Source of the DNA: Actinomycetes bacterium
GTDB lineage: Bacteria > Actinomycetota > JAICYB01
Assembly (NCBI GenBank): GCA_025934435.1
Contig: JAICYB010000011.1
Span: 1-64,000 of the forward strand
Length of the DNA stretch: 64,000 nucleotides
Direction: 5' to 3'
Part shown: positions 6,950-43,967 of the stretch, one piece after another
Layout of the letters: every line of letters begins with the position of its first letter
Position numbering within the stretch: position 1 is the first letter of the stretch
Made by a program: the position numbers and the translations under genes
Notes under the pieces: model-generated
Databases searched by the model: none
Seen by the model: the letters and a program-made list of their open reading frames with translations, nothing else
Told to the model about the DNA's origin: nothing

Positions 6950-8129
6950 CGGGTTGTCCCAGGATCACGGTCCCGCTGCCGTGCCGCGCACCGATCGTGC
7001 CGCCGGTGCCGTGCGCCAGAGCGATCTGGCAGTCCGGAACCTGCACGGGCGCGTTGGCCTCGCCGCGGAGCTGACGGACGGCTTCGATGACTTTCGTCAT
7101 CCCGCCGCGATTGTTCGGATGGTTGTTGCAGAGGCCGCCGCCGTCGGTGTTGAACGGCAGAACGCCGTTCGGGGACTCGAGTGCTCCGTCCGACACGAAG
7201 GCACCGCCTTTGCCCTTCTCGCAGAAGCCGAGGTCTTCGATCTGGATGAGAACCGTGATCGTGAACGAGTCGTAGATCGACGCGTAGTCGATGTCGGACG
7301 GCGTCACGCCGGCTTCCTCGAACGCTTGCTTCCCCGAGATCACAGCGGCCGTGTATGTGAGGTCGATATGTCCGTTGTTCGTGTGCTTGACGCCCTCGCC
7401 GTGGCCGAGGATCTTCACGCTCTTGCGTTCGAGATCGCGAGCGACCTCGGGCGATACGACGATCACCGCTCCCCCACCGTCGGTGATGACGCACGAATCG
7501 AGCCGGTGCAACGGATCCGCCACCATCGGCGAGTGGAGAACGTCCTCGACGGTGACGACGTCGCGCAGAAGCGCGTGCGGATTGTGCGATGCGTGCTTCG
7601 ATGCGGCGACACGGATCCACGCGAGCTGCTCGCTCGTCGTGCCGAACTCGTACATGTGCCGCCGAGCAGCGAGCGCGTAGAAACCGAGCACGTTCGGACC
7701 GAACGGCCCTTCGAAGCTCACCTCCGGGGTGTCGCCCCAGCCTCGTCCGCGACCGCCGCCCCCACCGAGCACGCGCATCCCGGCGGCGCGCGGGGCGCCG
7801 GCGAGCGTGATCACCGCGACGCTGCACTTCCCGGCGGCGATGGCCTCGGCGGCGTGTCCGACGGCGACGACGTAGGACGAACCACCCGTCTCGGTGGAGT
7901 CGATGTGACGCAGCTTGCTGAAGCCGAGGTACTCGGCCATCGAGATCCCGCCGAACCCGGGCGCGTCGCCGGCGCAGAAGTAGCCGTCCACGTCGTCCAC
8001 GGAAAGACCGGCGTCCTGGAGCGCGCCGTACGCGACCTCAGCGTGGATCCGCGCGAGTGACTTTCCTTTGATCTCGCGATCGGGGTGTTCGTACGCACCC
8101 GCGATGAACGCTTTCCCGTTGATGGACAT
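6942..8129 (-). CDS. Thiolase-like protein lacking the active-site Cys (Ltp2-like)
   Basis: A 395-residue thiolase-fold protein of the lipid-transfer/acetyl-CoA acetyltransferase group. Thiolases carry a nucleophilic Cys in the region that here reads ETGGSSYVVAVGHAA (about residues 80-94); there is no Cys at that place, only Gly/Ser. The C-terminal region has SIYDSFTITVLIQIED and a Gly/Asn-rich loop (GGGLCNNHPNNRGG) instead of the usual GHPxGxSG. Loss of the Cys together with a DUF35 gene is the pattern of Ltp2-type aldolases, which cleave beta-hydroxyacyl-CoA C-C bonds. A carbon-carbon lyase acting on an acyl-CoA is thus more likely than a true thiolase, by inference. Confidence 0.82.
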   Translation of the reverse strand: MSINGKAFIAGAYEHPDREIKGKSLARIHAEVAYGALQDAGLSVDDVDGYFCAGDAPGFGGISMAEYLGFSKLRHIDSTETGGSSYVVAVGHAAEAIAAGKCSVAVITLAGAPRAAGMRVLGGGGGRGRGWGDTPEVSFEGPFGPNVLGFYALAARRHMYEFGTTSEQLAWIRVAASKHASHNPHALLRDVVTVEDVLHSPMVADPLHRLDSCVITDGGGAVIVVSPEVARDLERKSVKILGHGEGVKHTNNGHIDLTYTAAVISGKQAFEEAGVTPSDIDYASIYDSFTITVLIQIEDLGFCEKGKGGAFVSDGALESPNGVLPFNTDGGGLCNNHPNNRGGMTKVIEAVRQLRGEANAPVQVPDCQIALAHGTGGTIGARHGSGTVILGQPDA

Positions 8130-8136
8130 GCGGCCC

Positions 8137-8145
8137 GTAGACTAC
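8137..8145. promoter_or_regulatory. Palindromic shared -10 region for divergent genes
   Basis: GTAGACTAC is a perfect palindrome around the central A. Read forward it contains TAGACT (8138-8143), 8 nt before GTG 8152; read in reverse it contains TAGTCT (8144-8139), 9 nt before the thiolase-like ATG at 8129. Both fit the TANNNT consensus, so one site could start two leaderless or near-leaderless transcripts in opposite directions. Confidence 0.55.
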
Positions 8146-8151
8146 GCGACC

Positions 8152-9330
8152 GTGACGCAAGCTCTCCACGGCATCCGTGTGATCGATTGCGCGACGGTCG
8201 TCGCGGGACCTCGTATCGGGATGTACCTCGGCGACATGGGGGCCGACGTCATCAAGGTCGAGCATCCGGTCCGCGGCGACGACACGCGCCATTTCGGCAA
8301 CGAGCGTGACGGCGTGTCGTTCTACTGGAAGCTTGTTTCGCGCAACAAGCGCTGCGTCACATTGGATCTTTCGAAGGGTGCCGATGTCGCGCGCAAGCTC
8401 TTCTCGACGGCGGACGTCGTGATCGAGAATTTCCGTCCCGGCACGTTCGAACGCTGGGGACTCGCGCCGGACACGCTCCTGCAGGACAACCCACGACTGA
8501 TCGTCGTGCGCGTGACCGGCTTCGGGCAGACGGGTCCGTATTCGAAACGACCGGGCTTCGCCACGCTCGCCGAGGCGATGTCCGGGCTCGCGTCGATCAC
8601 CGGCGAAGTTGGCGGCGAACCGATCCTGCCGCCTGTCGCGCTCGCCGACGAGGTCACCGGCATCGTCGGAACATGGGCGACGCTCGCCGCGCTGTACTGG
8701 CGCGACGCGAAGGGCGGCACGGGGCAGGTCATCGATCTCTCGCTCTACGAGTCGCTCATCCAGCTGCTCGGCCCCCTGCCGATGGCGTGGGACCAATCGG
8801 GGTACTTGCAACCGCGCATGGGCTCACGCATCCCGTACTCGATGCCCCGCAACGCCTACCTCTGTCGCGACGGCAAATGGGTCGCGCTTTCGGCGTCCGC
8901 GCAATCGGTCGCGATGCGTGTGTTCGACGCGATCGGCCGCCCCGACCTCAAGGACGACCCCCGCTTCACGACGATGGTCTCGCGCATCTCGCACGCGGAT
9001 GACCTCGACGATCTGATCGGCACATGGATGTCGAACCACGATCGGGACGACGCCCTCGAGATCTTCGAGCGTCACGACGCCGCGCTCGCCCCGATCTACG
9101 ACGTCTCGGAGTTCATGGACGACCGTCACGTGCGTGAACGCGGTTCCATCGCGACGGTTGAGGACGACGAGTGGGGTCCCGTCCGTATGCAAGGGGTGCA
9201 TCCGCGGTTCTCGCAGACCCCCGGCGAGATCAAGTGGACGGGGCCCTCAGCGCGTGGAGCGCACAACGACGAGGTCTACACCGAGCTCGGATTCGATCCG
9301 GATGAGCTCCGCGAGCGAGGTGCGATCTGA
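8152..9330 (+). CDS. CaiB/BaiF-type class III CoA-transferase
   Basis: A 392-residue enzyme of the formyl-CoA transferase family, which moves CoA between carboxylic acids. Family blocks are RVIDCATVVAGPRIGMYLGDMGADVIKVE near the start, NKRCVTLDLSKGADVARKL, ENFRPGTFERWGL and LIVVRVTGFGQTGPY. The Asp nucleophile of the family is not at its expected place: the sequence reads RPGFATLAEAMSGL, a variant I have seen in family members but whose catalysis I cannot assert. GTG 8152 is chosen because a TAGACT box lies 8 nt before it; ATG 8128 in the same frame would overlap the opposite gene. Its acyl-CoA neighbours suggest CoA activation of an organic acid. Confidence 0.85.
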   Translation: MTQALHGIRVIDCATVVAGPRIGMYLGDMGADVIKVEHPVRGDDTRHFGNERDGVSFYWKLVSRNKRCVTLDLSKGADVARKLFSTADVVIENFRPGTFERWGLAPDTLLQDNPRLIVVRVTGFGQTGPYSKRPGFATLAEAMSGLASITGEVGGEPILPPVALADEVTGIVGTWATLAALYWRDAKGGTGQVIDLSLYESLIQLLGPLPMAWDQSGYLQPRMGSRIPYSMPRNAYLCRDGKWVALSASAQSVAMRVFDAIGRPDLKDDPRFTTMVSRISHADDLDDLIGTWMSNHDRDDALEIFERHDAALAPIYDVSEFMDDRHVRERGSIATVEDDEWGPVRMQGVHPRFSQTPGEIKWTGPSARGAHNDEVYTELGFDPDELRERGAI

Positions 9331-9359
9331 CGCGCTGGGCGACGTTCGTCGGAGCGCTC

Positions 9360-10082
9360 GTGATCCTCGGTCTGTCGATCTCCTTGCTGGTCGTCCGCTC
9401 CGGCGAAGACGAGGTGCTCGAGCGGGCGGCGACGGCCTTCAAGACGCAGACGTCGTACCGGACGCAGATCAGCATCGTCACGAAGACGCCGGCGCCGTTC
9501 GGTCTCCAGATGACCGGCGCCGTCGATCAACGAACGAAGGTCGCGGAGTTCCAGATGCACTTCACCTACCCGGGGACGGCGCGAACCGTGACGTGTGGAC
9601 TGGTCTCCACTGCCGACGCCGTCTACATCCCGGTCAAGGCGAAGAACCGTCCGAAGTTCGGAGGCAAGCAGTGGGTCCGGTCGCCCGTCGCCGGCCTGCT
9701 TCCCATCCAAGGCTTCGGCACGAGAGGCTTCGACCCGAAAACCTTCGCGGATATCCACGACGTCCACCGGTCCGGAACGGGTGTCGTACGCGGCGTTACG
9801 ACGACGACGTATGACGGGACGCTCCATATCGACCGGACGAAGCTCCGCCAGGACGCGTCGTCGGTTCCGAGCGAAACCCCGGTGAAGCTCTGGGTGTCCT
9901 CCGACAACCTCATCCGTCGCCTCGAAGAGTCCGTCGTGACGAAGCAGAACAACCTCACGGTCACGACGAGGTCGACGTTCGATTACTTCGACTTCGGGGT
10001 TCCCGTTCACCTCGTCGCGCCGGCTCCGTCGCAGGTGGATCACGGCGACGCGCAGGCCGCGATCCTCGCCTGTCTCAGCTGA
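9360..10082 (+). CDS. Membrane-anchored lipoprotein-like protein (LppX/LprG-like fold?)
   Basis: A protein of about 240 residues with an N-terminal hydrophobic segment and an outside domain. The composition (two-residue repeats of exposed beta strands, FKTQTSYRTQISIVTKTPAP, WVSSDNLIRRLEESVV) recalls the LppX/LprAFG lipid-binding family of actinobacteria, but no lipobox Cys is seen, so it would be anchored by its N-terminal helix. GTG 9360 gives a very short hydrophobic start; reading the frame from CTG 9327, which overlaps the previous stop as CTGA, adds TRWATFVGALV and makes a more normal signal-anchor. The function is unknown. Confidence 0.65.
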   Translation: MILGLSISLLVVRSGEDEVLERAATAFKTQTSYRTQISIVTKTPAPFGLQMTGAVDQRTKVAEFQMHFTYPGTARTVTCGLVSTADAVYIPVKAKNRPKFGGKQWVRSPVAGLLPIQGFGTRGFDPKTFADIHDVHRSGTGVVRGVTTTTYDGTLHIDRTKLRQDASSVPSETPVKLWVSSDNLIRRLEESVVTKQNNLTVTTRSTFDYFDFGVPVHLVAPAPSQVDHGDAQAAILACLS

Positions 10083-10677
10083 GTAACGCGTCGAGCTCGG
10101 CGAGCGAGTCGATCCGGTGCGTCGCGCGCGCGGCCTCCGGACGTGCGGCGTGGACGAATCCCCACGGTCCGCGACGGATGAACACACCGACCATCCCGGC
10201 TGCCACGGCGGGAAGCACATCGTTGTCGAGACGGTCGCCGACGTATGCCGTCTCGCTTGCCGCGAAACCACCTTCGGCGATCACGCGCTCGAAGAATGCC
10301 GGTGACGGCTTCTCGACACCCCACGACGCGGACGAACCCACGACGTCGACCGGGAGATCGAGCGAGCGGAGGATGTCCTCGATCTGCTTCGACGTGTTGC
10401 CGACGAGACCGAGGCGGAGACCGCGACCGCGCAGCGTCCGGAGACACGGCAGCGCATCGGGATACAGATGCTCTTCGCCGAACCCGTCCCAGCTTTCGTC
10501 GCGCTGCACGTCGAAGATGTCGAAGATCTGTTGGTGGTCTTCACCGCGCTCGATGAGTGCACCGAACACGGCGAAGAAGGTGAAGCGCGGTATGCCGAAG
10601 TGGTCGGCCCAGTGCGTCCACAGGACGGTTTCGTCGACGATGGTCTCGCCGACGTCGAAGAAGACGGCGCGGATCAC
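10075..10677 (-). CDS. HAD-superfamily hydrolase
   Basis: A 200-residue haloacid dehalogenase-type phosphatase. Motif I is FFDVGETIVDE (nucleophile Asp8), motif II GLVGNTSK, motif III Lys in EKPSPAFFERV, and motif IV YVGDRLDNDVL. A cap of about 80 residues (WADHFGIPRF...SWDGFGEEHLYPD) separates motifs I and II. The second motif I acid is Gly, which occurs in many HAD hydrolases of this branch. It starts at GTG 10677 overlapping the GrpB-family stop as GTGA, so the two are translated as a pair. Its end overlaps the forward gene before it by 8 bp. The substrate is not predictable. Confidence 0.85.
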   Translation of the reverse strand: MIRAVFFDVGETIVDETVLWTHWADHFGIPRFTFFAVFGALIERGEDHQQIFDIFDVQRDESWDGFGEEHLYPDALPCLRTLRGRGLRLGLVGNTSKQIEDILRSLDLPVDVVGSSASWGVEKPSPAFFERVIAEGGFAASETAYVGDRLDNDVLPAVAAGMVGVFIRRGPWGFVHAARPEAARATHRIDSLAELDALLS

Positions 10678-33182: not shown

Positions 33183-34880
33183 GTGCCGAAGTGCCGCTGC
33201 GGGATGCACGTTCCCGACTCCATGCCGACGTGCCTGAACTGCGGCCGCGCCGTAAGCGCGGGTGCCGCTTCGACCTCCGAACGCCGCTCCGTCCCGAGAC
33301 GGCCGAGCACACCGAACATCAAGATCGCGCCGGACGAAGCGCCGCCGCCCGAACCGCATCAGCGACGCGTCGTGACGCGCAGCGGTGTGAAGGCCGCCGC
33401 CGTGGACGACGGGGAAGGTCCGGCCCGAAACGCCCTTGAGGCCCCGCTCGCACCACGAGCGGTCCAACGCGTGGTCGCACCCCCGCAGCTCGACGGCTTG
33501 TCGTGTTCTGTCTGCGGACGACGACCCGCGGTGACGATCAAGCTCCGCCGTCATCTCGGGTTGATCCTCGTGATGCGGATGGCGCGGCTCGAGGGAGCGT
33601 TCTGTCGCGAGCACGGAGAAGCGGTCGCGTCCGAATACCTCCGCCGGACGCTCGTCGAAGGCTGGTGGGGGATCCTCAGCTTCTTCGTCAACTGGTACGC
33701 GTTGTACATCGACATCGTCGCGCTCCGCGAGGTGCGTCGACTCGCGCCTGCCGCCGGCGAACGATCCGAGCTCCCGCCCGACACCCTTCCGGACGAGATA
33801 CGAACCGTCGCCACAGAAACAGCGGAAGGCCGGACGGAGCGCCGCCGCGTCGTCGGGCTCGCCGTGACCGCGATCGCGTTCAGCGCGTTCGCGATGTTCG
33901 TCCCGCAGATGGCGCACCTCGATTCGTCCGGGACGATGACGCGGCGACTCGCCGTCGACCTCGCGATCACAGTGTTCCTCTACGCCACCGTCGGCGTCCT
34001 GATCGCCGTGCGGAGCGCGCGGATCAACGTGACGCCGCGGCTCGTCGACGGAGGGAGTGCACTCACGGGCGTGTTGATGGGGCTGCTCGTCGGGGGCGGG
34101 ACCGGATTCGTCCTCGCGGAGATCGTTTCGCTCATCTCGGGCGGCGTAACGTCCGATCCGCGGATCATGCTCGTCGTCAGCGAAGGGAACGCGGTTCAGA
34201 TCCTCGCCGTCGTGTTCGTCGGCATCCTCGCGGCGCCGGTGATCGAGGAGTTCTTGTTCCGCGGCCTCCTCGTCGAATCACTTCGGACGAAAGGCCGCAC
34301 GTCGGCGATCATCGGCGGTGCCGTCGCCTTCTCGTTCTGGCACGTGAACCCGTCCGCCCTTCGTTACTACGTCCTCGTCGGGTTCTTGCTCGGGTACATG
34401 TACTGGCGCTTCGGCCTCGCGGGCTCGGTCGCCACGCACTTCGCGTTCAACGGCATGCTGACCCTCTTCGCGTTCCTCGCCGTCGGATCCACTTCGGTGT
34501 TCACGGCTACGTCCGGCGTGTCGGCCACGGTTCCCGGCGGATGGAGACGCGTGCACACAGCCGAACTCGCGTCGTTCGACATCGCGGTGCAGTCGCCGGG
34601 AGGCGCCGGATTGCTCGTCGAGCACGTCGACGCGCCCGTGGCCTTGCCTTCGCCGACCGCGTCGCAGGCGCCGCCGGACGCAACCAACGTGCGCGTCGGG
34701 AGCCTCAACGGCTCCCCCGCGCTCCGCTACGACACGACGAAGGACGGCCACGCCGCCGAAGTCGTCCTCGTCACGCGAGGACACCGCGGTTACACGATCG
34801 TGCTCGTCCCGGAACAGAGCACGAAAGCATCGGCACAGTTCGAGCGGATGCTCCAGACGATCGTGCTGCCCGCGACGTGA
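33183..34880 (+). CDS. CPBP-family membrane protease with zinc ribbons and outer domain
   Basis: A 565-residue protein. It begins with a zinc ribbon (Cys4-x-Cys6, Cys17-x-x-Cys20), followed by a second Cys/His cluster (CSVCGRR at 108-114; CREHG at 141-145). About eight helices then form a CPBP (Abi) protease-like core with Glu355-Glu356-x-x-x-Arg360, His387 (FSFWHVNPS) and His419/Asn423, the residues of Rce1-type glutamate proteases. After the last helix (to about 445) comes an exported domain of about 120 residues resembling a hydrolysis-resistance or lipoprotein domain. A GGGAG sequence lies before GTG 33183. The role may be protein processing at the membrane or export-linked defence; unknown. 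Confidence 0.8.
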   Translation: MPKCRCGMHVPDSMPTCLNCGRAVSAGAASTSERRSVPRRPSTPNIKIAPDEAPPPEPHQRRVVTRSGVKAAAVDDGEGPARNALEAPLAPRAVQRVVAPPQLDGLSCSVCGRRPAVTIKLRRHLGLILVMRMARLEGAFCREHGEAVASEYLRRTLVEGWWGILSFFVNWYALYIDIVALREVRRLAPAAGERSELPPDTLPDEIRTVATETAEGRTERRRVVGLAVTAIAFSAFAMFVPQMAHLDSSGTMTRRLAVDLAITVFLYATVGVLIAVRSARINVTPRLVDGGSALTGVLMGLLVGGGTGFVLAEIVSLISGGVTSDPRIMLVVSEGNAVQILAVVFVGILAAPVIEEFLFRGLLVESLRTKGRTSAIIGGAVAFSFWHVNPSALRYYVLVGFLLGYMYWRFGLAGSVATHFAFNGMLTLFAFLAVGSTSVFTATSGVSATVPGGWRRVHTAELASFDIAVQSPGGAGLLVEHVDAPVALPSPTASQAPPDATNVRVGSLNGSPALRYDTTKDGHAAEVVLVTRGHRGYTIVLVPEQSTKASAQFERMLQTIVLPAT

Positions 34881-36449: not shown

Positions 36450-36465
36450 GTTTCCCTCCTGTGCG

Positions 36466-36480
36466 GTATAAACATGATAC
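36466..36480. promoter_or_regulatory. Candidate TetR operator
   Basis: GTAT (36466-36469) and ATAC (36477-36480) form a dyad around AAACATG. It overlaps TATAAA (36467-36472), 18 nt downstream of CTGTCA (36443-36448), a possible forward promoter for the ABC operon. Confidence 0.35.
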
Positions 36481-36514
36481 GAGTGTCAGGTTCGGCTCGG
36501 GGAAGGGCAACTCA

Positions 36515-37963
36515 TTGCGCAAGCTGACGCCGTACCTGTTCTCAGCGGCCCTCGCGCTCGTGCTCGTCGCGACCGCGGCCCTCACGGGGACGAAGCCACC
36601 GACGCGCGTCGTGCATGCGGCGACGGCCGGCACGACCGCGGTCGCTCTTGGTGGTTCGTCCGGCGGACAGGTCGCTTCGACCTCCGGCTCGCAGGCCCTC
36701 GGCGGCACGCGGACGATCGCCGGCTCGTCCCGGACGGTCTCCGGCCCGCATCCGATCTACGACCCCGGCGTCACGGATAACTCGATCCTCGTCGGCGGGT
36801 CGACGTTCACGTCGGGACCAGCGGCCGTCTACGGCGAGCAGATCGCCGTCGGCTTCCAGGCCGGCGTGAACTACGTCAACGACCACGGCGGGATCAACGG
36901 CCGCAAGCTGGTTGCGAAGATCTACGACGACGCCGGCGATCCGGTGAAGCAGCTCGCGAACACGAAGCGGCTCGTCGAGGTCGACAAGGTGTTCGCGCTG
37001 ACGATGTCGTACGCACCGATCACCGGTCAGTACGTGCTGCAGAAGAAGGTCCCCGTCTTCCACCTCGGTCAGTTCAACGAAGAGTTCACCAACCCTTGGT
37101 GGTTCTCGGTCGGCGGCGCACAGCGGACGTCGTCGTTCGCGACGGCCGACTTCGCAACCAACTATCTGCACGCCAAGTCGGCGGCGATCTTCTATCTCGA
37201 CGTCGGCGCCGCGAACTACTCGCGGGCCTACGCGAACGAAGTGAAGTCGGACTGGGAGCGCTGGGGAGTCAAGGTGCCGGTCATGGTTCCCTTCGCCGCC
37301 GACCAGGCATCGTGCAGCGACGCGATCTCGCAAGCGAAGAGCGCGGGCGTCGATTTCATCGACTTCGAGATCGACGCATCCAAGGTCATCAACTGCGGCG
37401 TCAACGCACAGCTGAACGGTTACAAGCCGCCGAAGGGCTGGGGCGGCTACCTGATCGGCGTTCCGGTGATCCACGAAGCGCTCGGCGACTTCTCCGAAGG
37501 CATGTACGCATTCGACGCGTTCGGGGACCTCTACAACATGCCGGAGTACCGCCAGGAGGTTCAGAAGGTGTCGTCCAAGACGGAGTGGTACTCGTCGGTG
37601 ACGGCGTCGTACTTCCTCGCGGCACTGCTGATGCGGGACGGGATCGCGAAGCTCGGCAATGACATCACGCGCGAACGATTGCGCGAGGTGCTCAACACGT
37701 TCACGGATTGGCGTCCGGCCGAGCTCGCGCATGCGAGCGACTTCCCCACCTGGACGTGGCGCCCGGATTGCCACCTCGCGCTCCACGGCGGTTACGCCAT
37801 CCAGATCCAGAAGGATCCGAGCGGTGACCTGAAGTGGACGCAGATCACGCCGCAAGTGCCGGCCGTCGCGCTCCCGCCGGGGGCGAGTGCGCCGTCCGAC
37901 TTCAGCCACTGCACGAGCGTGTTCGCGCACGGCTCCGTGTTCGGGAGATACGCGAAGCGATGA
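36515..37963 (+). CDS. Branched-chain amino acid-type substrate-binding protein
   Basis: A 482-residue exported solute-binding protein of the Leu/Ile/Val (Peripla_BP_6) type. A TTG start at 36515 with a GGGGAAGGG ribosome site is chosen over the upstream ATG; it gives a normal signal peptide (RKLTPYLFSAALALVLVATAAL). Mature features are DNSILVGGSTFTSGPAAVYGEQ, GINGRKLVAKIYDDAGDP and QKKVPVFHLGQF, the two lobe boundaries of this family. Such proteins bind amino acids, short peptides, amides or aromatic acids. The stop overlaps the next gene as ATGA. Unlike the classical branch no lipobox Cys is seen. Confidence 0.88.
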   Translation: MRKLTPYLFSAALALVLVATAALTGTKPPTRVVHAATAGTTAVALGGSSGGQVASTSGSQALGGTRTIAGSSRTVSGPHPIYDPGVTDNSILVGGSTFTSGPAAVYGEQIAVGFQAGVNYVNDHGGINGRKLVAKIYDDAGDPVKQLANTKRLVEVDKVFALTMSYAPITGQYVLQKKVPVFHLGQFNEEFTNPWWFSVGGAQRTSSFATADFATNYLHAKSAAIFYLDVGAANYSRAYANEVKSDWERWGVKVPVMVPFAADQASCSDAISQAKSAGVDFIDFEIDASKVINCGVNAQLNGYKPPKGWGGYLIGVPVIHEALGDFSEGMYAFDAFGDLYNMPEYRQEVQKVSSKTEWYSSVTASYFLAALLMRDGIAKLGNDITRERLREVLNTFTDWRPAELAHASDFPTWTWRPDCHLALHGGYAIQIQKDPSGDLKWTQITPQVPAVALPPGASAPSDFSHCTSVFAHGSVFGRYAKR

Positions 37964-38991
37964 CCGCGACGCAAGCTCCGCGCAGCCGGTTCGCGCCTCG
38001 TGTGCAGCCGCGGATGGAGTACCTGTCGTCGCAAGCGTTCGTGCGGTCCGTCATCGAGATCTCGTCCGCCGCGACGATCTCCGGGTATGCGGTCTCGCGG
38101 GTGACCGCGCACCGACTCGATCCGACCGCGACGATGGTCGTCCTGATCGGTGCCGCGGCGATCAACACGCTGCTGGTTTCGCTCTACGCGTTCTTCGTCG
38201 CTTTGTCCGACACGGTCGACGGTCTCGTCACGAAGGACGGCACCGAGAAACCGTCGCCGGACGCCGACGTCTTGTCCGCCGGACGACTCTGGGGACGCGT
38301 CCTCGGATCTGGTGTCGTCGGCGGCGCCTGGGGTGCCGGCCTCACGTTCCTCGCGCTCGCCGCGCTGAATCGCCGCGAGTCGCACTTCCTCGGCCTCTTC
38401 GTCGGCGTATTCATCGCGGCCGGTGTCGCGTCGATCACCGCGGGCCTCGCGGCAACGGCGCTCGGCGTGCGCTTCGGGCTGGACGTACCGAAAGCGGCGG
38501 CGGTTCGTCCCTCGAGGCGGCGCGCGTGGCGCGACCTCGCGCTCCCCTTCTCCGCTCTGTTCGCGCTCGTGACGGGGGCGTTCACCGTCCTGCTGTTCCA
38601 CGACTATCACGTCGGCGCCGCGTTCTCGAGACACGTCCTCACAGAGAAAGAAGTGCTCGCCGACCTCCCGATCCAGATCATTATCGCCGTCGCCGTCGCG
38701 AACTTCGCGCTCGGCCGCGCCGGACGAGCCGAGTCGAAGCTCGGCCTCGTGTCGCTCGAAGACCCTGAGCGGCAACCGACGACGGCGGTGTTCGGGATCC
38801 AAGCGCTCGTGGCCGTCGTCTTGGTCCTGCTCTTCGTCGGCGGCGCGCTCGTGCGCTTCCTGCTGCCGGCATATCCGACGCTCGTCCAGACCGTTATCGC
38901 CCGCAGTGCTGTCGTGTTCTTCGCCGCGCTGTTCGCCGGCGGCATCGCGTACACGCGCGGTGCCCTCAACGCGAAGGTCGTGAAGCGATGA
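37960..38991 (+). CDS. Unrecognised multi-helix membrane protein in the Liv operon
   Basis: A 343-residue protein with about eight predicted helices (for example SVIEISSAATISGYAVSRV, MVVLIGAAAINTLLVSLYAF, AWGAGLTFLALAAL, LFVGVFIAAGVASITAGLAATAL, LPFSALFALVTGAFTVLLF, PIQIIIAVAVANFAL, ALVAVVLVLLFVGGALV, VIARSAVVFFAALFAGGIAY). There is no ATPase, permease or known transporter motif. It is coupled by ATGA to the binding protein before it and to the secreted protein after it, so it belongs to the transporter. The function could be a partner of the permease or an envelope assembly protein. Confidence 0.7.
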   Translation: MTATQAPRSRFAPRVQPRMEYLSSQAFVRSVIEISSAATISGYAVSRVTAHRLDPTATMVVLIGAAAINTLLVSLYAFFVALSDTVDGLVTKDGTEKPSPDADVLSAGRLWGRVLGSGVVGGAWGAGLTFLALAALNRRESHFLGLFVGVFIAAGVASITAGLAATALGVRFGLDVPKAAAVRPSRRRAWRDLALPFSALFALVTGAFTVLLFHDYHVGAAFSRHVLTEKEVLADLPIQIIIAVAVANFALGRAGRAESKLGLVSLEDPERQPTTAVFGIQALVAVVLVLLFVGGALVRFLLPAYPTLVQTVIARSAVVFFAALFAGGIAYTRGALNAKVVKR

Positions 38992-40409
38992 AGCGCTGGC
39001 TTTCGATCGGCGGTGTGTGCGTCGTCCTGCTCGCGTTCGTCCTTCCGTTCGACGCTCGCGCGACGACGGCGCTCGACATCGACGGCGAGACGGAAGCGTT
39101 CGCGGTTCGTGTCGAGTACGACCTTCCGCTCCCCGGAAGCATCGGGACGGAGCCACATGTCGTCGGTGAGATCCGGCGCACGTTCGGAGAGAACGCGAAA
39201 GGTCTCGCGGGCGCTCCGACGGACTTCACCGCGATCACCGGGGGCGCGGTCTACGACCCATGGTCGACGGTGAACGGCAACGACGGGCCACTCGCGGTGA
39301 GCGGCAACAGCACCGGCATCAAGGATCCGATCGATCCCCACAACGGCCTGCCGACGGCGGAGTGCTTCTACCCCGGACAGCCCGCCACCACGGTCTCGTG
39401 GCCTCGCGACCTCCGTGCCGACACGAAGCCGATCCCGCCGACGTCGTACGCGAACGCACAGTGCGGCGCCGGTCCGACGACGCAACTGACCGCCTGGTCG
39501 GCCTCCGACGACGTGCCGGGTTCGCCGACGGGAGCGCTCGGTTCCGTGCTGCACACCGGCGCGCTCGACGCGACGTCATTGCTGCAACCGGAGCACGGAG
39601 TCGTCACGTCGACGGCGCGCGCGTCGGCGCACGAGGTGTCCGTGCTCGGCGGTGCGGTCCGTATCGGTGGCGTCGAAGCCGAAGGCACCTCGACGGCGCA
39701 GGGTCCGGGCGGAGCCGACGGAACGAACAGTCACGTCGCGCTTTCGGACATCTCGGCCGGCGGACAGGTCTTCTCCGTCGCCGACGACGCGATCACCGTT
39801 GCCGGGAACACGTTCCCGATCGATTCGTCCGCGGGCCAAGCGTTCCTGAACAACGTGAACGCGGGCCTCGACGCGACCGGATGCAAGCTCTCGGTACTCG
39901 GCCCGGCGAACCCTTATCCGCAGGGGTTCCTCTTGTCGCGCAAGCCGCCGCAGATCGGCGTCGCGAAGGACGGCACCTTCGCCGCGTCGATGCACGGCGG
40001 GATGCTGATCCTCTGCGACCTTCCGCAAGACGTCACGACACCGACGACATTCACGCCGCAACGCGTGCAGATCCTTGTCGGGTTCGTGTACTCGATGGCT
40101 CGCGCGACGAAGGGCGACGCCGGCTTCGGCACCGGAGACTTCCTCGCCGGCGCCGGGAGCATCAACACTCCGTCGAAGACCGTCGACGTCCCGGGACCGT
40201 CCGCGGCGCCGGCACCGGTCGTCGCCGCGAAGACCGACACGAACAACGTGCCGCAAACGCAAGCGCTTCCCGCGTCCGCCGGCAGGACGATCCGCTACCG
40301 GCCGCTCGCGCGATCGACGCGGATCATCTTCATCGTCTTCGGCATCTTGCTCTTGATCGTCGCGACCAACGTCGCATCGCGCAGATTGAAAGAGCTCGTC
40401 GGATCGTGA
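38988..40409 (+). CDS. Unrecognised exported, C-terminally anchored protein in the Liv operon
   Basis: A 473-residue protein with a signal peptide (RWLSIGGVCVVLLAFVLPFDARA), a long outside region rich in Gly, Thr and Pro with beta-like repeats, and one C-terminal membrane helix (IIFIVFGILLLIVATNVAS) followed by a basic tail. About four Cys are spread through the outer part (for example TAECFYP, NAQCGAG, GCKLSVLG). I find no known domain. It is tied by ATGA to the multi-helix protein before it and by GTGA to the permease after it, so it may act with the substrate-binding protein at the membrane surface. Confidence 0.7.
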   Translation: MKRWLSIGGVCVVLLAFVLPFDARATTALDIDGETEAFAVRVEYDLPLPGSIGTEPHVVGEIRRTFGENAKGLAGAPTDFTAITGGAVYDPWSTVNGNDGPLAVSGNSTGIKDPIDPHNGLPTAECFYPGQPATTVSWPRDLRADTKPIPPTSYANAQCGAGPTTQLTAWSASDDVPGSPTGALGSVLHTGALDATSLLQPEHGVVTSTARASAHEVSVLGGAVRIGGVEAEGTSTAQGPGGADGTNSHVALSDISAGGQVFSVADDAITVAGNTFPIDSSAGQAFLNNVNAGLDATGCKLSVLGPANPYPQGFLLSRKPPQIGVAKDGTFAASMHGGMLILCDLPQDVTTPTTFTPQRVQILVGFVYSMARATKGDAGFGTGDFLAGAGSINTPSKTVDVPGPSAAPAPVVAAKTDTNNVPQTQALPASAGRTIRYRPLARSTRIIFIVFGILLLIVATNVASRRLKELVGS

Positions 40410-42481
40410 CCGAGTTCCTCGCGACGCTCCCCGGCGGCCTCGTCACCGGCGCGGTGTACGCGCTGCTCGCGATGGGACTCGTCTTCATCTACAAAGCGAC
40501 GCGCGTCCCGAACTTCGCGTACGGCGCGCTCGCCGCGCTCGTCGCCTTCTTCCACTACAGCCTCGTGAACGGACGACACGTCGGGATCCACCTGAACGTC
40601 CTGTTCGTCCATGCGGGATTCGACGCGACGATCCGGCTCCCGTTCTGGGGTGCGATGCCCGTATCGCTCGCGTTCGCGGCCGTCGTCGGATACGTGATCG
40701 AGCGATTCGTGATGCGTCCGTTCGCGCGGGCTCCGATGGTGACGAACATCATCGTGACGCTGGCACTTTCCGCGCTCTTCGGCGGCCTCGCGCAGCAATG
40801 GTTCGGAGCGAACGACCTGATCGTCCCGAACCGGCAGGCCATCTTCCCGCGGACGTCCGCCTTGTCGATCGGCGGCGCGAAGATGTCGTGGGAGCAGCTC
40901 GGCGTGATCGGCCTCGTCCTCGCGTTCGCCGGCGCGCTGTACTTCTTCTTCCGCTTCACCGAGACGGGTCTTGCGTTGCGAGCGGTCGCGACGGACCGCG
41001 ACGTCGCCTCACTGCAGGGCGTTTCGGTGCGGCGCGTCTCGCAGGTCGCGTGGATCGCCGGCTCGATGGCCGCCGGCGTCGCCGGGATCATGCTCGCGTC
41101 ACTCATCGTTTCGTCCAACCCGAGCTTGCTCGTGCTGCTCTCGATCTGGGGCTTCGCCGCGGCGATCGTCGGCGGGATGATCTCGTTTCCGATCGCCGTG
41201 GGGGCCGGATTCGGGATCGGGCTGTGCGTCGAGACCTTGCGTCACTACGTCTCGAAGGGTGACGCGACGAAGCTCGTCGGCACGCCCGAGCTCGTCGTGC
41301 TCGGCGCGGTCATCGTGCTGCTCGCTTCGCGTCCGTCGTGGATCTTCAAAGGCATACGCGAAGAGCAGGACTCCGGCGTCGTGTCGCGCGCATCCGGCGT
41401 CGACCTCGCGATCGGCCGGTGGATCGACCCCGTCGAGGCGTACCGGCTCGTTCGCGCCGCGACAGGACAGATACTTCCGCCTCGGTTGTGGACGGCGATC
41501 AAGCGCACCGTGCCCTGGCTCCTCGTCGCGCTCGCGCTCGCGTTCCCGCTCTTCCCGCTGCCGGAGTTCTGGACGTTCCCGCTCAATCTCACCCTGATCT
41601 TCCTGCTCGTCGGTCTGTCGTTCGTCGTCGTCGTCGGCTGGCTCGGACAGATCTCACTCGCGACGGGCGTGTTCGTCGCGATCGGTGGCGCGGGCGCGTA
41701 CATCGGCGCGAACTTCCTGCATCTGCCGTTCCCGCTGCCGATCGTCACCGGGATCTTGTTGTCGATCCCGGTCTCTGTGCTCATCGGTCTTCCGGCGCTT
41801 CGCCTGCGCGGGCTGCATCTCGCGATCGCGACGCTGCTCTACGGACTCGTCGTCGAACGCGCGCTGCTCCCCCGCTTCACGGCGGCGTCCGTGTTCCACC
41901 GGCCGTCGTTCCTGCTCTCCGACCGCGCGCTCTATTACGTGTTCCTCGTCTGCACGGCGCTCGCCTTCGCCTTCGCGTGGCGGTTGTCGAAGACCCGGAT
42001 GGGACGCGCCTTCCGCGCGATCCGAGATTCGGAAACGGTGGCGAGCGCATACGGCATCCAGCCCGTTCGGACGAAGCTCACGGGATTCGCTGTGTCCGGC
42101 GCGATCGGCGCGCTCGGCGGCGCGCTGCTGATCTACCAGCTCGGCTCGTTCCAAGCGCAGTACGGCACGAGCGGGTTCTCGATCGTCTGGTTGTTGAACG
42201 CCGTCGTCGGCGGTATCACGTCGATCGCCGGACCGGTCATCGCCGCCGTCGTTTTCGGACTGCTCCCCGTCGTCAGCCAAGGCGCGGTGCAAGCTGCCCA
42301 CATCTCCTTCTGGCCGCTCATCGCCGCCGCGGTGCTGACGATCGTGATCATGGCGATCAACCCCGAAGGTCTCGCGTCGTTCGCGCGTTTCCTCCGTACG
42401 CGTGTGAGCGCGCACGACGTCGAGGACGAGCAGGACCTCGAGGCGATCGAAGAGGCGTCGAAGGAGCTCGCGCGCGTATGA
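40406..42481 (+). CDS. Fused LivH-LivM permease
   Basis: A 691-residue permease that joins in one chain the LivH-type (residues about 1-320) and LivM-type (about 370-660) halves usually made as two proteins. LivH features are LLAMGLVFIYKATRVPNFAYGALAAL and FAAAIVGGMISFPIAVGAGFGIG; LivM features are GLSFVVVVGWLGQISLATGVFVAIGGAGAYI and SKTRMGRAFRAIRDSETVASAYGIQ (the coupling helix). It has about 16-18 helices and a Glu/Asp-rich cytoplasmic tail. GTG 40406 overlaps the previous stop as GTGA. It works with the two ATPases that follow. Confidence 0.88.
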   Translation: MTEFLATLPGGLVTGAVYALLAMGLVFIYKATRVPNFAYGALAALVAFFHYSLVNGRHVGIHLNVLFVHAGFDATIRLPFWGAMPVSLAFAAVVGYVIERFVMRPFARAPMVTNIIVTLALSALFGGLAQQWFGANDLIVPNRQAIFPRTSALSIGGAKMSWEQLGVIGLVLAFAGALYFFFRFTETGLALRAVATDRDVASLQGVSVRRVSQVAWIAGSMAAGVAGIMLASLIVSSNPSLLVLLSIWGFAAAIVGGMISFPIAVGAGFGIGLCVETLRHYVSKGDATKLVGTPELVVLGAVIVLLASRPSWIFKGIREEQDSGVVSRASGVDLAIGRWIDPVEAYRLVRAATGQILPPRLWTAIKRTVPWLLVALALAFPLFPLPEFWTFPLNLTLIFLLVGLSFVVVVGWLGQISLATGVFVAIGGAGAYIGANFLHLPFPLPIVTGILLSIPVSVLIGLPALRLRGLHLAIATLLYGLVVERALLPRFTAASVFHRPSFLLSDRALYYVFLVCTALAFAFAWRLSKTRMGRAFRAIRDSETVASAYGIQPVRTKLTGFAVSGAIGALGGALLIYQLGSFQAQYGTSGFSIVWLLNAVVGGITSIAGPVIAAVVFGLLPVVSQGAVQAAHISFWPLIAAAVLTIVIMAINPEGLASFARFLRTRVSAHDVEDEQDLEAIEEASKELARV

Positions 42482-43248
42482 CGACGATCCTTCACGTCGA
42501 CGGGGTCAAGCTCGCCTTCGGCGGGGTGAAAGCACTCGACGGCGTGACCTTCGACGTTCCGGCAGGCGAGATCGTCGGCCTCATCGGACCGAACGGCGCG
42601 GGCAAGACGACGCTCTTCGACTGCATCTCGGGCTACCAACGTCCCGACGAGGGGTCGATCACCTACGACGGCAACGTCGAGCTCGTCGGCCTCCCGCCGC
42701 ACGAGCGCGTCACGCACGGCATCGGCCGTCTCTTCCAGCAGGCGCGCATGTTCCCGTCCGTGTCGATACGCGACGTCTTGAAGACGGTGCAGCACCGCCG
42801 CATGAAAGCCGGACTGTTCCGTTCGGTGCTCGGTCTTGCCCGCGCCGAAGAGCGTGAGGTCACCGCGCGGGCGGACGAAGCCCTCGAGCTCGTCGGCCTC
42901 ACCGCCCACGCCGACAAACCCGCGATGGAGCTTTCGACGGGGATGCTCCGCCTCTGCGAGCTCGCGGCGATCGTGGCGGTTCGTCCGCGCCTGCTGCTGC
43001 TCGACGAACCCTCGTCGGGGATCGCGCAGAAGGAGACGGAAGCGTTGCTGCCGCTGCTGAAGCGGCTACGCGATCACCTCGACGCGACGGTGCTCGTGAT
43101 CGAGCACGACATGCCGCTCGTGATGGGTCTCGCCGACCGCATCGTCGCGATGGCGCAAGGCAAGGTGCTCACGGAAGGAACGCCCGCCGTCGTGCAACGT
43201 CACCCGGACGTGCTTGCGTCCTACCTCGGAACGAGAGCCGCGCGATGA
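42478..43248 (+). CDS. livG: LivG-type ABC ATPase
   Basis: A 256-residue ATPase of the branched-chain amino acid transporter family. Walker A is GPNGAGKTT (about 37-45), Walker B LLLLDEP, and the switch His is in VIEHDMPLV. The signature is unusual, LSTGMLRLCE rather than the typical LSYGxQR of LivG. It also has the LivG insert RLFQQARMFPSVSIRDV. ATG 42478 overlaps the permease stop as ATGA, and its own stop overlaps livF as ATGA, so the two ATPases are made together. Confidence 0.9.
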   Translation: MTTILHVDGVKLAFGGVKALDGVTFDVPAGEIVGLIGPNGAGKTTLFDCISGYQRPDEGSITYDGNVELVGLPPHERVTHGIGRLFQQARMFPSVSIRDVLKTVQHRRMKAGLFRSVLGLARAEEREVTARADEALELVGLTAHADKPAMELSTGMLRLCELAAIVAVRPRLLLLDEPSSGIAQKETEALLPLLKRLRDHLDATVLVIEHDMPLVMGLADRIVAMAQGKVLTEGTPAVVQRHPDVLASYLGTRAAR

Positions 43249-43967
43249 CGCTGCTTCGTTCGGAGGGGATCGACGTCCACTACGGACGCGTCCAGGTGCT
43301 CTACGACGTCTCGATCGAGGTCAACGAAGGCGAGTTCGTGGCCCTGCTCGGCACGAACGGCGCCGGCAAGTCGACGTGGCTGAAAGCGGTCTCGAACCTC
43401 GTCACTCCGAGCGCGGGGAAGGTGTTCTTCGATGGACGGGAGATCACCGCGCTCCCCCCGGACGAGATCGTCGCGCGCGGTCTCGGCCATGTCCCGTCCG
43501 GACGGGGCACGCTTCCCGACCTCACGATCGACGAGAACCTGCGCCTCGGCGGACATCTGCTCCGCAACGAGAAGGCGAAGCGCCGCGAGGCGATCGACGA
43601 GATCTACGCGACGTTCCCGTGGATGAAGGACCGCCGGACGCAGCTCGCCGGGACGCTCTCGGGAGGCGAGCAGCAGATGCTCGGCATCGGACGCGCACTC
43701 GTGAATCGTCCGAAGCTCTTGATGATCGACGAGTTGTCGCTCGGCCTCGCACCGATCGTCGTCGAAGAGATCTACGAGCAGATCGCGAAGCTGAATGCGA
43801 ACGGCTTGACGATCCTCATCGTGGAGCAGAACGCGACGCTCGCGATGGAAGTCGTCGAGCGTGTGCTGTTCATGGAGAAGGGCCGCGTGCAGTTCTCCGG
43901 CCGAGGCCGCGATCTGCTCGCGCGCAAAGACCTGCTGCGAAGCGTCTTCCTCGGCGCGAAGCGCTAA
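43245..43967 (+). CDS. livF: LivF-type ABC ATPase
   Basis: A 240-residue ATPase. Walker A GTNGAGKST (about 36-44), signature TLSGGEQQMLGIGRALV, Walker B LLMIDELSLGLAP, and switch region LIVEQNATLAMEVVERV are canonical LivF. It pairs with LivG below the fused permease. The stop codon overlaps, by three bases on the opposite strand, the stop of the histidine kinase gene, leaving no room for a terminator. Confidence 0.92.
   Translation: MTLLRSEGIDVHYGRVQVLYDVSIEVNEGEFVALLGTNGAGKSTWLKAVSNLVTPSAGKVFFDGREITALPPDEIVARGLGHVPSGRGTLPDLTIDENLRLGGHLLRNEKAKRREAIDEIYATFPWMKDRRTQLAGTLSGGEQQMLGIGRALVNRPKLLMIDELSLGLAPIVVEEIYEQIAKLNANGLTILIVEQNATLAMEVVERVLFMEKGRVQFSGRGRDLLARKDLLRSVFLGAKR

Follow-up and report, generated by a model that had tools for sequence, protein, structure and literature searches.

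A Liv-type ABC importer operon with a putative accessory module of two membrane proteins in an actinobacterium

Branched-chain amino acid importers of the Liv (HAAT) type are the closest described relatives of the system encoded in the window, by which we mean the whole 64,000-nucleotide stretch analysed here (contig JAICYB010000011.1 of an Actinomycetes bacterium). The likeness extends to a Peripla_BP_6 substrate-binding protein (SBP), LivH and LivM permease domains, the ATPases LivG and LivF and the order of the operon; the differences are that LivH and LivM are fused, that the SBP has no lipobox and that two extra membrane proteins, P0001 and P0002, are encoded between SBP and permease. P0002 resembles the choice-of-anchor P proteins (NCBIfam NF040603) in being exported and beta-rich with a C-terminal anchor. 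Many canonical members of that family, however, have two tandem domains and are encoded away from Liv genes, whereas P0002, which scores 27 bits there and 56.5 bits with a subfamily found beside Liv genes, ends in a transmembrane (TM) helix and has no LPxTG motif. The counterpart of P0001 in related operons is TM2, a small unnamed protein. Both hold the membrane-partner slot by a P0002-type protein and both are predicted to be N-in/C-in with short outer loops, but P0001 has 343 residues and 8 helices, no cysteine and no sequence similarity to TM2.

Our leaning, held at slightly better than even confidence, is that the Liv (HAAT)-type ABC importer encoded in the window carries an accessory module missing from most characterised Liv systems, and that P0002 is its dedicated extracytoplasmic subunit. 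The module is undescribed in Pfam, NCBIfam and the literature searched; searches for the family name or for an accessory module of Liv transporters returned nothing relevant.

The operon in the window

Table 1. Genes of the Liv-type operon in the window
Feature	Coordinates	Strand	Basis or remark
SBP, Peripla_BP_6, one N-terminal hydrophobic helix, no lipobox cysteine	36461..37963	+	Pfam 1.2e-38, lipobox analysis
P0001, integral membrane protein, 343 aa, 7-8 TM, orphan	37960..38991	+	fills slot held elsewhere by TM2
P0002, 473 aa, exported, beta-rich, single C-terminal TM	38988..40409	+	NF040603 at cut-off and out-of-sample profile
Fused LivH-LivM permease, 691 aa, BPD_transp_2	40406..42481	+	Pfam/NCBIfam
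LivG ATPase	42478..43248	+	Pfam ABC_tran 1.5e-30, BCA_ABC_TP_C 4.2e-08
LivF ATPase	43245..43967	+	Pfam ABC_tran 1.1e-28

The original prediction, made from the DNA sequence by itself, placed two membrane proteins inside a Liv-type ABC operon, tied in by 4-bp overlaps on each side, and both the coordinates and junctions of the two open reading frames and the Pfam and NCBIfam assignments of their neighbours bear this out (Table 1). Starts and stops overlap by 4 bp at every junction from the SBP to LivF: the SBP stop (37961-37963) with the P0001 ATG (37960), the P0001 stop (38989-38991) with the P0002 ATG (38988), the P0002 stop (40407-40409) with the LivHM GTG (40406), the LivHM end (42481) with the LivG start (42478), and the LivG end (43248) with the LivF start (43245). 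The SBP has an alternative start at TTG 36515. Guanine plus cytosine by codon position (0.69/0.50/0.86 in P0001, 0.64/0.55/0.85 in P0002) is of the coding type and resembles that of the Liv genes. Measured against the criteria for Liv/HAAT systems, the operon has an SBP, two BPD_transp_2 permease domains and two ATPases.

Elsewhere in the window, a 565-aa membrane protein encoded on the forward strand (33183-34880) reads as CAAX-protease (CPBP)-like with a zinc-ribbon-like N-terminal stretch; a histidine kinase gene, recognised from its sequence only, lies downstream of the operon on the opposite strand; and a further LivHM-type match stands at the window end (62440-64185). Liv-type importers are strongly expanded in the source genome, whose 3.3 Mb assembly holds 24 matches to the window LivHM permease, and in some uncultured actinobacteria. 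Three paralogous operons with a P0002-type gene occur in this same genome (L035, L151, L152).

P0002 and its relatives beside Liv genes

P0002 was described in the original prediction as exported and C-terminally anchored, in agreement with its predicted topology: an N-terminal signal helix, a long extracytoplasmic part, a TM helix at residues 446-464 and a short basic tail. The accompanying claim that neither protein belongs to a known family holds for P0001, which remained unmatched, but needs amending for P0002, which reaches the NF040603 cut-off of 27 exactly (27.0 bits, residues 149-263). This match is partial, covering profile positions 17-121 of 185 and not the full domain. A profile of the Liv-adjacent subfamily from which the window protein had been left out aligns with residues 2-467 of P0002 (56.5 bits, E 3e-15) and still gives 42 bits when signal peptide and TM helix are removed; none of 1000 shuffled copies of P0002 was reported by it. 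A scan of the genome contigs with P0002 alone as query gave no match. The ectodomain model (mean pLDDT 56) is confident at about residues 190-310 only, where it forms an antiparallel sheet with a helix; a fold search returned no Foldseek hit at E <= 0.001, and the weak matches, the best with a VIA-align Z of 4.5, were to beta-barrels and others. By these profile matches and its predicted anchor, P0002 is a member of a Liv-adjacent, choice-of-anchor-P-like subfamily of exported, C-terminally anchored, beta-rich proteins.

Across the phylum sample, NF040603 matches were found in 51 of 396 genomes. We took 20 of the weak, partial matches together with their surroundings: a Liv operon adjoins 14 of the 20, and the protein ends in a TM helix wherever its C-terminus is available. 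Several of the six sampled matches with no adjoining Liv operon have LPRTG-type ends (L036, L041, L050), and L047 has LPHTG. As a control we took the 30 best canonical choice-of-anchor P matches and looked for a Liv gene within 1.5 kb. None of these 30 had one, and their scores against the Liv-type profile did not exceed 36 bits. The Liv-type subfamily is in this way set apart from canonical choice-of-anchor P proteins by its profile and its predicted mode of anchoring. Homologues found mainly outside transporter operons would have refuted the original prediction; P0002-type proteins instead turn up repeatedly in the Liv operons of numerous actinobacterial families. Fusion of LivH to LivM is frequent in these operons and dispensable, LivH being separate in L037, L042 and L045. 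In L052, where the P0002-type gene (7916-10438) adjoins a Liv operon with a fused LivHM-LivG, the P0002-type domain follows a long repeat-rich N-terminal part that is beta-propeller-like by eye.

It is conceivable that P0002 is a general envelope protein of the choice-of-anchor P kind, co-transcribed with Liv genes by chance and making no functional contact with the importer. Its NF040603 match at the cut-off would fit such an explanation, as would the canonical family being found widely among actinobacteria, several of its members ending in an LPxTG-type signal. We nevertheless consider it unlikely: the Liv-type subfamily has its own profile and mode of anchoring and recurs beside Liv genes in many families while the 30 best canonical matches lie away from them, and it co-diverges with the permease. 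Divergence tracks that of LivHM with rho 0.73 for the P0002-type protein, 0.76 for TM2 and 0.68 for the SBP, values that are not corrected for shared ancestry.

TM2, P0001 and the anchoring of the binding protein

The partner that usually accompanies P0002-type proteins is TM2, which has two helices around the motif GWxGAxxT....EQIPYLISGG, often followed by a C-terminal H..C..C..C pattern, and which is covered by no Pfam or NCBIfam family. It is encoded directly after the P0002-type gene in seven of the first loci and is absent from the window operon. A TM2 bait search of GTDB contigs, made without regard to Liv genes, found 27 loci, all in Actinomycetota: 25 of the 27 are in Liv operons, the other two being contig ends, and in 23 of these 25 a P0002-type gene stands next to TM2. 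The hosts are Frankiales and Acidimicrobiia MAGs, Actinophytocola, Actinomadura atramentaria, Streptomyces jeddahensis and Haloechinothrix halophila. In the phylum sample TM2 is present in 43 of 396 genomes, and 29 of the 30 best matches lie in Liv operons, the remaining one at a contig end. Liv operons also exist that have TM2 with no detectable P0002-type gene (L068, L070, L175, L200-L203) or a P0002-type gene with no TM2 (L039, L048, L053), so neither protein is strictly required.

The architecture varies around this theme. In five genomes of one family (L188-L189, L191-L193) TM2 adjoins an exported, C-terminally anchored protein of 414-464 aa that belongs to another sequence family (this is clear for L188, L189, L192 and L193), together with SBP-LivH-LivM and, on contigs that extend far enough, LivG-LivF; the same architecture here has another ectodomain. 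Two P0002-type operons have as partner a small zinc-ribbon-like one-TM protein with a CxxC...CxxC pattern, and not TM2 (L152:12973-13287, L046:3206-3463). TM2 is split over two adjacent genes in L073, L077, L078 and L080, one encoding the EQxPYLxSGG hairpin and the other the H..C..C..C tail.

The charge distribution of TM2, with K+R per protein of 4.4 in the N-terminal part, 0.5 in the outer loop and 3.7 in the C-terminal part, predicts an N-in/C-in protein. This arrangement, the often conserved H..C..C..C end and the short cytosolic tail of the membrane-spanning P0002 would suit a module for sensing and not transport, in which P0002, with P0001 or TM2, reports the state of substrate or SBP to the cytoplasm, TM2 doing so through its cytosolic H-C-C-C motif. 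Against this, Pfam and NCBIfam find no kinase, anti-sigma or regulator domain in P0002, TM2 or P0001, the tails are short, and no regulator is a constant operon member in the maps read; sensing as the main role appears improbable to us.

Among SBPs assigned to a TM2, 52 of 54 have a lipobox and 48 of 54 start with CGx[R/K], a motif found in one of 21 SBPs with no TM2 (Fisher 5e-12, in a post hoc comparison of related operons that are not independent). The single exception, L054, is on a contig that ends just past its P0002-type gene. In P0002-type operons with TM2 the SBP is a lipoprotein in 33 of 33 cases, and in those with no TM2 five of seven SBPs have no lipobox cysteine (window, L048, L052, L053, L152). 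That SBPs of TM2 operons are lipoproteins with a CGx[R/K] N-terminus suggests a possible role for TM2 in handling or organising the SBP's lipidated end.

P0001, predicted originally to have eight helices, shows seven strong hydrophobic segments, and a single-sequence model of low confidence (mean pLDDT 52) has eight long membrane helices; the positive-inside pattern fits the N-in/C-in orientation. No relative was found in 396 genomes of the phylum, where the only match spanned 66 residues and contained a stop, in 198 genomes from a different class, where the best match had E 0.012 across 43 residues, or in plasmids, viral contigs and the PDB. Kinship with TM2 was ruled out (hhalign probability 0.2%, -6.1 bits), as was an internal duplication, the halves failing to align. 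The idea that both proteins always occur together beside fused LivHM permeases found no support: no relative of P0001 could be detected, and the place of partner usually goes to an unrelated small two-TM protein. Liv operons in two related genomes (L157, L159), with an extra multi-TM protein and a two-TM 464-aa protein, were rejected as instances of the same module; these two proteins, encoded after a fused LivGF, read as an ABC-2-type permease and a GldG-like protein.

Since P0001 has no homologue, it is gene order that speaks for its role. There is a lesser but appreciable chance that P0001 stands outside the module, as a lineage-specific membrane protein that was inserted between the SBP and P0002 genes and might, for instance, be a separate transporter; its lack of homologues in the genomes, plasmids and viral contigs searched and of similarity to TM2 is what such an insertion might look like. 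Its 4-bp overlaps on both sides and its coding-type composition argue for integration in the operon, and the slot between SBP and permease that it occupies is also the position of TM2 in L043, L074, L078 and L180. The idea of an accessory module is therefore supported for P0002, whose relatives recur in Liv operons where the best canonical choice-of-anchor P matches do not; the idea of P0001 as a fixed partner is not supported.

Proposed function and substrate

In the reading that we favour, of an importer with a dedicated extracytoplasmic subunit, P0002 would lie beside LivHM and may dock or retain the SBP or present a poorly soluble substrate. TM2, in the operons that have it, would probably deal with the lipidated end of the SBP. 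In the window the SBP has no lipobox, and so no lipid anchor, and TM2 is absent; here P0001 may take the place of TM2, most likely as a scaffold in the membrane that serves both SBP and P0002. It is tempting to extend this to a wider proposal, which we offer tentatively and regard as rather doubtful, that many actinobacterial Liv importers are obligate multi-subunit machines, in which a membrane-anchored, extracytoplasmic co-receptor of the P0002 type is joined by a membrane partner matched to the anchoring of the SBP (TM2 for lipidated CGx[R/K] proteins, different proteins, P0001 among them, where there is no lipid anchor).

Genes near the operons of relatives encode acyl-CoA dehydrogenases, AMP-dependent ligases, SDRs and enoyl-CoA hydratases, and also an aldehyde dehydrogenase, a P450 and a ChsH2-type OB-fold protein. 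In the window, the divergent gene upstream reads from its sequence as a 3-hydroxyacyl-CoA dehydrogenase and adjoins a TetR-type regulator. These neighbours point to CoA-dependent catabolism of organic or lipid-derived acids. The substrate is on this basis probably such an acid, although catabolic neighbours are not proof, and once imported it would be degraded as a CoA ester.

TM2 operons have cultured hosts in Streptomyces jeddahensis, Actinomadura atramentaria and Haloechinothrix halophila. If many Liv importers carry extra subunits, the textbook set of SBP, LivH, LivM, LivG and LivF would be incomplete for them. Moreover, substrate assignments made by analogy with branched-chain amino acid importers would be doubtful for these operons, because they sit among catabolic genes of the acyl-CoA type.
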